Below are positions 61,354 through 64,000 of a DNA stretch of 64,000 nt, piece by piece. This DNA comes from Blautia luti. GTDB lineage: Bacteria; Bacillota; Clostridia; Lachnospirales; Lachnospiraceae. Numbering within the stretch: position 1 is the stretch's first letter; the number at the start of each line of letters is the position of its first letter. The position numbers and the translations under genes are program-made. The notes below the pieces were generated by a model. It saw only the letters and a list, made by a program, of their open reading frames with translations, did no database searches and was not told where the DNA came from. The stretch spans positions 1,012,501 through 1,076,500 of the forward strand of contig NZ_AP028156.1 of assembly GCF_033096465.1 (NCBI RefSeq), given 5' to 3'.

Positions 61354-62118
61354 TTATTTAGCCTTATGTACCGGATCTGCCGGATACCCGCTGCGAAGCT
61401 TCTGCATTCCACGCTGCAGAGCATCTTTGGAATTCTTCCAGTCGGCATCCTTATTTCTGTAGTCAAACTTATCCGACAGCCATACAAGATCTTCTTCCAT
61501 ACGCTGGAAGTTCTCATCCATCAGTTTAAACATAGCCGGATAAAATTCAGCCTTTTCTTTATCATTCAGATACTTATCCGCACCATCGCACAGAATTCCG
61601 AAGTGATGCAGACAGAAGCCTTTACTGCGCAGAATTTTATTCTTAAATTCATTATCCTGCCGATACAGCCAGAAAAAAGTTTCCACATATCGTGCAAAAG
61701 TATCCGAAATATTCTGGCAGATAAAACAACTGCAATCTTTAGAAACAACCCAGGCAGCAAGCGTATTTTTGTCTGTGCCTGCATCTGAACGGCGAAAACG
61801 CCCTAAAATCGATGACTTTCCGGGTGTGAAAGAATCGAATTGCTTTTTCATTTCTTCGCGAAGCTTATGGTAATGTGTCTGAAGAATCAATGTATTGCCA
61901 AGCGTATTTCCGTAATCAAACATTTTCTTCATATGTATTTTGCAGAATCCGGCTTTATCAGTCTGGTCACGAATGTCACTTTCCATATAAGAAGAACTGT
62001 TACCAAGCACGAAATTCAGCGAATTCTGTTCCAGTTCACGCTCAATGAAACAAAAGGGGCATTCATCATTGGCATTCACTGCGTCATTAAGTGGGATGGT
62101 GTATAATTTTTCTTTCAT
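61354..62118 (-). CDS. DUF6062-like cysteine-rich cytoplasmic protein
   Basis: 254 aa. N-terminal MKEKLYTIPLNDAVNANDEC leads to CPFC (about residue 21). Later come GFCKIHMKKM, SKDCSCFICQN and GFCLHHFGIL, giving four Cys/His clusters that look like metal ligands. No membrane segment. Resembles proteins called DUF6062 in Clostridia; function unknown. Start set at 62118 with GGAG 10 nt upstream; the longer frame to 62181 lacks a site. Probable promoter on the minus strand: TTGACA near 62175, 17 nt, CACAAT. Confidence 0.75.
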   Translation of the reverse strand: MKEKLYTIPLNDAVNANDECPFCFIERELEQNSLNFVLGNSSSYMESDIRDQTDKAGFCKIHMKKMFDYGNTLGNTLILQTHYHKLREEMKKQFDSFTPGKSSILGRFRRSDAGTDKNTLAAWVVSKDCSCFICQNISDTFARYVETFFWLYRQDNEFKNKILRSKGFCLHHFGILCDGADKYLNDKEKAEFYPAMFKLMDENFQRMEEDLVWLSDKFDYRNKDADWKNSKDALQRGMQKLRSGYPADPVHKAK

Positions 62119-62195
62119 CTTAATAGAACTCCAATCGTAGCTTTTTCTTCTTATTGTGCACAGAAAATTAGTTAGTGTCAAGAAAAACTATAATA

Positions 62196-64000
62196 TCAGG
62201 AAAGCAAGAAGCTCTCAAGGGAAGCATAAGTGGCGAAAGTCCAGCATAATCCAAAGTTTCCCTGATCTTTTACCGGGGATACACGGTTATATTGACGTAA
62301 ATCATAGAAAGCAGGAAATATTTCGGCAGATGCAAAAGGGGTATCGCCTGTAGTTATAGAGGAAATGATACCGGATGAATCATCTGTATAAGTCGGGTTG
62401 AGGATAAATCCATGTTCTTTGAGTTCGCTTGAGGAATAGACTTCACAGGAGATATCCTCTCCGTCTGCGCCGGCAGCAGGAATACTTTCTGCGATATCAC
62501 CATTGCTAAATGCTTTTATACAGACATTAGTGCCAGGCTGATAGACATTAAAATCTGTCCAGATATTTCCATGATGGCTAATGTAACTTTCGCCATCAGA
62601 GGCTGTGGCGAGGGAACTGCTGTCGCCAAGCGGAGCCTCAAAATATGTTTTTGCACCGGCTGTACTCCATAATTTTATAACAACTGCGAAACGTGTTCCA
62701 CTTTTTAAGGTTATCGGTTTCTTGAGGTTTACTGTGTGATATCCCGCATATTTGCAGATGCCTGATGCAGAAGGAGTGGGAAGTTTTAGCAGTGAATCTT
62801 TGCCTTTGAAGGAGGATACGATATAAACTTCATAATTGTAATTGCTATCATAAGTATAAAAGGAGACGGAACCGAGCTGCTCTTTTTTCTTTAATTTCTG
62901 ATTATTTTCCGGAAAAACATTAGCACAGTACAATTCATCGTTATATCCGAAAGCAGAGGTAGCGCCTAACGGGTCGTACTGGTAAATGCGCTTGTAGGTC
63001 TTATCACTGGAAACTTTTCCAAATGCCATGGAAAATTCCTGGATACCGAGAAATCCATCATAATAGGAAATATAGAAATATCCATTGTCTGCAAATTCTG
63101 TTCCCCAGCTGTTTTTACAGAGAAATGCACCATTCCCAGCGGGTTCTGTCACAAAATTTTCTTTTGAGTAGTTATCATCCCAACCGATAATGGCGATAGC
63201 GTGATTTGTTGCTATGACGGGAGAAGAACCAACTGGCGCTCTGCCTGCGTTATAATCAGCAGGGAGATAATAGGAAAGATCATCGCTGGAATAATATTCT
63301 TCAACAGAAACATAAGATGCGGATACTGCCCCATAATTGATGACGGTCTGTTTGATCGCCTGATTATCCAGAGCACTTTTTCGTTCAGGGATAAAAATAA
63401 TTTCATCTATTTTAAGAGCTGGTGAAAAGGAAACATCAGCTGCTGAACGGAGATTCTTATAGGGTGCCTGCCATTCGTATACAGGACCAGTTCCACGTGT
63501 AAGATAGGCGGCAGCCATAGAAAAACTGCCACCTTCATCGTAATTACGGTCAAAACCTGTGGATGAGGAACGATTACTTGTCTGGTAACCCATATGAAAT
63601 TCTGAAAAATCACTGGCATTTGGGTTATCAGAATATGGATTCAGAGCAACGGATTTGGAATATGGACCATAGTAGTGTTTTCCGTTTATAAGGAGATATG
63701 CACGGACTTTATATAATGGACTGCCGGAGTCAAATGTCGCAGATTCGTAATATTCAACGTATTTGCCACTTTCAGGATCGTTTAGTATATCTTCGATTTT
63801 ATAGTATTTGCTGTTTGAATCATCAGCTCGATAAATGAAATATCCGGTAACATAAGGTAAATATTTCCATTTGACTGTGATACCGATATTCTGTTCGGTG
63901 ACAGATGTCAGACTGACTTTTGGAATGGATAATTGGCATATGTATCCGGTAGAGCCGTAGTCTCCAAGAGAAATTTTGCTGCCAGTTTTCCGATAGGGAC
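62196..64000 (-). CDS. lectin-type C1 papain-family protease with permuted catalytic order, N-terminal FnIII-like domain (5' end outside window)
   Basis: The frame is open from the window edge (600 residues visible). Order seen: FnIII-like domain (about 20-120); FSEFHMGYQTSN and GGSFSMAAAYLTRGTGPVY (about 132-175); His in NHAIAIIGWDDNY (His266; codon 63203-63201); Asn in CKNSWGTEF (Asn296); a lectin-like beta domain (about 350-500); a linker; then PAFYDLRQYNRVSPVKDQGN leading into GLCWTFA, with Gln579 and Cys585 (codon 62246-62244) just 15 residues before the stop. In ordinary papain-family enzymes the Gln/Cys block comes before His and Asn. All catalytic residues are present, so an active permuted fold is possible. 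Secretion signal not visible. Confidence 0.8.
   Translation of the reverse strand, partial: PYRKTGSKISLGDYGSTGYICQLSIPKVSLTSVTEQNIGITVKWKYLPYVTGYFIYRADDSNSKYYKIEDILNDPESGKYVEYYESATFDSGSPLYKVRAYLLINGKHYYGPYSKSVALNPYSDNPNASDFSEFHMGYQTSNRSSSTGFDRNYDEGGSFSMAAAYLTRGTGPVYEWQAPYKNLRSAADVSFSPALKIDEIIFIPERKSALDNQAIKQTVINYGAVSASYVSVEEYYSSDDLSYYLPADYNAGRAPVGSSPVIATNHAIAIIGWDDNYSKENFVTEPAGNGAFLCKNSWGTEFADNGYFYISYYDGFLGIQEFSMAFGKVSSDKTYKRIYQYDPLGATSAFGYNDELYCANVFPENNQKLKKKEQLGSVSFYTYDSNYNYEVYIVSSFKGKDSLLKLPTPSASGICKYAGYHTVNLKKPITLKSGTRFAVVIKLWSTAGAKTYFEAPLGDSSSLATASDGESYISHHGNIWTDFNVYQPGTNVCIKAFSNGDIAESIPAAGADGEDISCEVYSSSELKEHGFILNPTYTDDSSGIISSITTGDTPFASAEIFPAFYDLRQYNRVSPVKDQGNFGLCWTFATYASLESFLLS

Follow-up and report, generated by a model that had tools for sequence, protein, structure and literature searches.

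The last gene of the window, by which we mean the whole 64,000-nucleotide stretch of DNA analysed here, very probably encodes a real, presumably secreted and circularly permuted papain-type protease in which the block carrying the catalytic cysteine comes last; taken whole, this is the best explanation of our data. Among cysteine proteases, family C1, with papain and the cathepsins, is the textbook example. Circular permutation is already known elsewhere in the papain-like clan, and the sequences place the present case within family C1, with a conserved order. A natural permutant and its canonical relatives form a direct pair for testing folding, maturation and inhibition with the catalytic helix last. 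There is also an annotation hazard, in that domain tools return two fragments and may thereby imply a broken gene.

Domain order of P0001

The window holds only the 3′ part of the gene (62196-63998, minus strand), which extends beyond the window edge. The surrounding one-contig assembly (G000, 3.74 Mb) supplies the remainder, giving an ORF of 1,422 amino acids (G000:C1:1074696-1078964) that encodes protein P0001. The part inside the window comprises the following features:

62196..64000, minus strand: 3′ part of the 1,422-residue gene, residues 823-1422 and stop; the 5′ part lies outside the window, up to G000:C1:1078964
63645..63998, minus strand: last part of the FnIII-like repeats, P0001 823-940 (label given by eye; no Pfam call)
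62985..63611, minus strand: papain core without Cys block, P0001 952-1160, beginning at DFSEFHMGY (PF00112 profile 67-205; phmmer to Cwp84, 4ci7)
63201..63203, minus strand: catalytic His1088 (from alignments)
63111..63113, minus strand: Asn1118 of the KNSWG block (from alignments)
62505..62987, minus strand: Lectin_like domain PF18560, P0001 1160-1320 (141.8 bits)
62322..62504, minus strand: linker joining the lectin-like domain to the Cys block, about 60 residues, a possible relocated propeptide
62199..62321, minus strand: Gln/Cys block with the catalytic helix, P0001 1382-1422, forming the C-terminus (PF00112 profile 2-64)
62262..62264, minus strand: oxyanion-hole Gln1401 (from alignments)
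62244..62246, minus strand: catalytic Cys1407 (from alignments)
62196..62198, minus strand: stop codon TGA straight after the catalytic helix; the sequence ends ...SLESFLLS

From its N-terminus, P0001 consists of a signal-peptide-like start (assigned by eye), an acidic stretch, LRRs (LRR_4, 60.5 bits in Pfam), FnIII-like repeats, the papain core, the Lectin_like domain, the linker and the Gln/Cys block. The preliminary description had considered a signal peptide followed only by FnIII-like domains in front of the core; the former is borne out by eye, and the latter does not hold, as LRRs are present too. The FnIII-like repeats are not called by Pfam, the nearest entry being GH85_C (E 0.66).

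PF00112 matches the gene in two pieces of swapped order, with profile positions 67-205 upstream (39.7 bits) and positions 2-64 downstream (32.5 bits), each of which passes the cut-off of 20.7 bits on its own. The papain core contains His and Asn and lacks Cys. The swapped pieces and the position of the stop codon confirm the order first read from the window, in which the His, Asn and lectin-like blocks precede a terminal Cys block, and the cut does lie between the catalytic helix and the DFSE segment at which the core starts. (Cys1407 and His1088 are Cys585 and His266 in the numbering of the preliminary description.) The complete Gln/Cys block further upstream that would have spoken against this reading was sought over the whole of P0001 with a profile of the Cys block and with the pattern Q...CW, and both detect the C-terminal copy only.

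In a phmmer search against solved structures, residues 13-379 of the query correspond to chain residues 111-465 of Cwp84 (4ci7; E 2.4e-31). The Cys block (query 446-481) aligns upstream of this region in 4ci7, at chain residues 67-102, an alignment that is weak alone (6.0 bits); the same block matches mature cathepsin H at its N-terminal end (1nb3, 4-38) with an E value of 9.7e-9.

Judged as a member of peptidase family C1A, the whole of P0001 scores 57.1 bits against PF00112 in two stretches, Gln, Cys, His and Asn of the permuted genes stand in their motifs, and the predicted fold is papain-like. Its chain runs His, Asn, Cys instead of Cys, His, Asn, and we therefore file P0001 as a permuted derivative of C1A and not as a regular member. 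As in Cwp84-type enzymes, PF18560 lies directly behind the protease core (141.8 bits, 1160-1320).

A DUF6062 gene (324 bits; window 61357-62121, minus strand) adjoins the protease gene on its downstream side. If its start is at 62121, the gap between the two is about 75 bases, which leaves no space for a lost remainder of the protease.

Permuted relatives and their conservation

Relatives were collected by BLAST and HMM passes over about 1,550 genomes (handles G000-G1549). We found at least 18 permuted genes in 18 genomes and four families (f1, f11, f73 and f77), a lower bound since at most three or four candidates per genome were scored in the large surveys. The search for homologues of identical order thus yielded at least 17 genes beyond the window gene, among them a same-genus orthologue that has the same ends, and they support circular permutation, as originally proposed, as the best reading. 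Six of the genomes are one-contig assemblies (G000, G749, G820, G893, G1117 and G1140).

The distribution is uneven. Permuted genes occur in 4 of 64 genomes of the window's own genus (G000, G1528, G1529, G1540), in all four of the genus of G261, G748, G749 and G750, in three of five of the genus of G1117, G1139 and G1140, and in 6 of 18 of family f73 (G820, G893, G1123, G1124, G1126 and G1138, the last truncated by a contig end). The gene of G701 is the sole permuted one found among 48 genomes of its family, the other 47 having none.

Of the 115 loci examined first, 80 came from genome contigs and the rest from the own or near genomes, and the window gene was the only permuted one in them; every other ORF in which BLAST detects both core and Cys block was canonical, and further ORFs had no detected Cys block. 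In 397 genomes of the family, one match among those listed, apart from the window gene, runs without a break through core, lectin-like domain, linker and Cys block; it belongs to G261 and has 38% identity over query 12-482 of 483. Profiles A1 (window gene and G261) and then A2 (six permuted domains) were used for wider searches, which added permuted genes from 392 genomes of the order and 391 of the class, again among the matches listed; in a phylum sample of 398 genomes, the matches listed held no additional permuted gene. Two candidates whose profile match reaches far toward the Cys end (G716:C45 and G1020:C9) proved canonical on reading, a match on a Methanosarcina plasmid was likewise sorted as canonical, and viral contigs gave just six short matches.

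The most telling relative, G1540 from the same genus, is a full-length orthologue of 1,408 amino acids with the same domains that ends just past the catalytic helix; the profile match to it runs beyond its stop and hence includes one TGA. It is 43% identical to P0001 26-1421 (586 of 1,360 aligned residues). The Cys block is the best-kept segment, with 25/40 residues identical; the counts are 83/161 for the lectin-like domain, 101/202 for the core, 206/540 for the LRR part and 19/55 for the linker.

Outside the pair formed by the window gene and G1540, the chain goes on past the helix; by eye, it often enters a stretch of Ig-like appearance and ends in a hydrophobic tail. Partner domains vary. 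A 5′-nucleotidase or part of one is found in G261 (by Pfam) and in G748, G1528 and G1529 (by eye), and the G701 gene carries LRR_5 and Big_2. G749 and G1117, both scanned, have an N-terminus with a HELQH motif and CHB_HEX_C domains, and the N-terminal parts of G750, G1139 and G1140 align with theirs; G820, G893 and G1126, also scanned, have CHB_HEX_C without the HELQH N-terminus. In L173 (G749) and L212 (G1117), HELQH lies within about the first 450 residues, which have no Pfam match at E up to 0.01. This region is probably a zinc metallopeptidase, and its fusion to the permuted cysteine protease possibly places two proteases in one chain. In G1117, a subtilase with Kelch-like repeats (L212 6769-9999) adjoins the permuted gene. 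The shared architecture and a nested tree position suggest horizontal transfer of the whole gene between f1 (L173 and L174, from G749 and G750) and f77 (L212, L245 and L246, from G1117, G1139 and G1140).

None of the 18 permuted genes has lost Gln, Cys, His or Asn (15 of 15 by alignment and three by eye). The Trp of KNSWG is replaced by Tyr in the six f73 genes. All 18 have Thr after Cys-Trp (CWTF), compared with 9 of 176 canonical motifs; we set aside the corresponding Fisher p value of 1.8e-16, as it treats related rows as independent. For three close groups comprising 11 of the 18 genes, dN/dS was calculated by the Nei-Gojobori method with a custom script, leaving several saturated dS values unused. 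The ratio is 0-0.16 for the Cys block where dS can be estimated, 0.03-0.18 for the core and 0.19-0.63 for the linker; in the second group, constraint on the Cys block is no stronger than on the core or the C-terminal part. These ratios place the Cys block of the 11 genes under purifying selection.

Origin of the permutation and the linker

Over core and lectin-like domain, canonical relatives are 31-40% identical to the permuted genes. A tree built from these two domains only, and therefore blind to the location of the Cys block, has a branch that splits 14 permuted from 52 canonical rows with support of 82/85, recovered in 86% of 200 bootstrap trees. The canonical rows include five added bearers of the pro-segment described below, and the near-copies G750, G1139 and G1123 and the partial G1138 were left out. 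The alignment used for the structure model, A4, holds 23 core-lectin rows and 8 Cys-block rows.

A single origin of the permutation is likely from these data. The opposite case, in which the permutation arose repeatedly and the line of the window gene, G1540 and G701 is separate from the main clade, seems to us rather unlikely, and the evidence is divided. Two earlier trees, without G1540, G1528, G1529 and the five canonical rows, separated the window gene and G701 from the main clade of permuted genes; the first used the best 86 of 163 canonical rows, and the second 47 canonical and 11 permuted rows, hand-thinned for long branches, near-copies and, with others, for speed, and had one permuted clade in 2% of its bootstrap trees. 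The G701 linker also resembles canonical pro-segments, and the linkers of the main clade stay below significance. Against this, the fuller tree joins this line to the main clade, the breakpoint is shared, CWTF stands in all 18 permuted genes, and one clade is not rejected by either AU test: in the first, the one-clade tree lies 37 log units above the free quick tree (p 0.877), and in the second it is 4.3 log units lower (p 0.187). The tree result is sensitive to sampling, and 82/85 amounts to moderate support.

The likely route to the permutation is a tandem duplication with subsequent loss; the preliminary description had listed duplication and deletion as an alternative to permutation, and the idea survives in this other role. 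An intermediate with two Cys blocks was found in none of 251 ORF rows with a core match from 246 loci; these rows, which are not distinct genes, divide into 200 canonical, 40 permuted (the 15 genes then known) and 11 without detected Cys block. Canonical C1 genes stand in same-strand tandem at L059 5689-9442, L078 5776-10074 and G600:C339, and a permutation could plausibly start from such pairs.

Between the end of the lectin match and the Cys lie 76-109 residues. In the window gene, the linker contains a YS..E....GF.xNP.Y element resembling ones in the linkers of G1540 and G701. The pattern [IVL]NP.[FYL] is present in three of the 18 linkers. Among canonical pro-segments, 10 of 194 have it, compared with a mean of 1.9 after shuffling, and among C-terminal extensions 1 of 119. 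Such a pro-segment precedes the Cys block in canonical L184, L186, L192, L251, L262 and others; by eye, a short IP or VP motif often comes after the element, and these canonical segments may represent an undescribed propeptide family.

A profile of the 10 motif-bearing canonical pro-segments, flattered by the motif-based choice of its members, gives 29.5 bits for the G701 linker and 5.3 for that of G1540, with none reported for the window linker; the best of 3,600 shuffled sequences reaches 13.9. The fairer, motif-blind test uses the part after the motif in nine pro-segments (L170 was left out as unlike the others) and gives 15.2 bits for the G701 linker (E 0.0032; best shuffle 8.7) and at most 7.4 bits for the other 17. 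Only the G701 linker, 1 of 18, is thus significantly like canonical pro-segments, and the window linker is not. With hhalign, the linkers of the window gene, G1540 and G701 match the pro-segments with a probability of 26% over 8 columns.

Predicted structure and proposed mechanism

AlphaFold2 models the permuted domain with a pTM of 0.82 and is confident for core, lectin-like domain and Cys block; the closest fold is Cwp84. Block means of pLDDT in the Cys block are 80-92, a level that a helix alone can also score, and most linker residues are under 50 and thus predicted to be disordered. In a control without the Cys block, mean pLDDT is about 76 compared with 83 for residues 11-210 and 88 compared with 90 for residues 211-380, a small drop from an alignment with 8 rows fewer.

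We envisage that the Cys-bearing helix at the C-terminus would pack in cis against the core and thereby restore a normal active site, and that the enzyme would cleave extracellular proteins, with the LRR and FnIII-like parts probably serving attachment or substrate binding. The linker may act as an internal propeptide. It occupies the place of the canonical propeptide, so that cleavage within it would give an enzyme of two chains, the short C-terminal one carrying the Cys. Tentatively, and with more doubt than confidence, we combine these ideas in one proposal: a single circular permutation would have founded a C1A clade and made an internal linker of the N-terminal propeptide; cutting the linker would separate the Cys-bearing helix and free no N-terminal propeptide, giving a two-chain enzyme joined by packing; and the new ends would allow insertion in large surface proteins with diverse partners.

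Three other readings of the window gene have to be weighed. That it reflects an assembly join, as the preliminary description had also considered, or a single recent rearrangement breaking a canonical gene, fits its solitary place in this order among the first 115 loci; the probability is nonetheless close to nil, and a one-off assembly join is excluded, because the order is kept in at least 17 further genes, some of them in the one-contig assemblies and one of them orthologue G1540 with its identical ends. More serious, if still quite improbable, is that the permuted domain is real and has lost its protease function, being degenerate or purely binding or structural. The activity of the permuted enzyme is deduced from sequence, the linker is predicted to be disordered, and six f73 genes have Tyr for the Trp of KNSWG; on the other side stand the complete retention of Gln, Cys, His and Asn and a Cys block that in most pairs ranks with the segments under the strongest constraint. 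It is very improbable that the C-terminal Cys block acts in trans with the core of another molecule, in a domain-swapped dimer or by complementation. A flexible linker of the length found here would permit such pairing, and against it the AlphaFold2 monomer is confident for all three folded parts, although a monomer model says nothing on dimers. We thus retain a permuted protease that would act in cis.

Cwp84 of Clostridioides difficile (4ci7, 4d59) likewise combines peptidase family C1A with a lectin-like domain, and by sequence the P0001 domain descends from Cwp84-type C1A enzymes, which it resembles. Propeptide and Cys block are at the front in Cwp84, whereas in P0001 linker and Cys block lie behind the lectin-like domain; Cwp84 has cell-wall-binding domains, as passages of its description state (PMC4089489), and P0001 instead has LRR and FnIII-like parts in front.

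Other papain-like folds in which the Cys has moved toward the C-terminus are the permuted NlpC/P60 enzymes (YaeF/YiiX, LRAT) and PPPDE, according to parts of two papers (PMC3142127, PMC10318531). Unlike P0001, these belong to a distant part of the clan, cluster II (PMC10318531), and P0001 has no Pfam match to permuted NlpC/P60 (C92, LRAT) or PPPDE at E up to 1, a range in which the HMMER filters drop most matches above about 0.1. In the sections concerned, the same 2023 clan survey puts permutations in other clusters and states that the cluster of C1 retains all core structural elements (PMC10318531), and an article on how the papain family evolved early on contains no word starting with 'permut' in its main text (PMC10380794). 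We found no permuted family C1 enzyme in the open-access literature on permutation, covered mostly at listing level.

The genome itself also encodes a canonical paralogue, P0002 (G000:C1:2952190-2954478), which shares the C1 domain, the motifs and the FnIII-like repeats with P0001. It differs in having the usual order, with the Cys block at 140-182 before the core, and the two cores are 26% identical over 337 columns.
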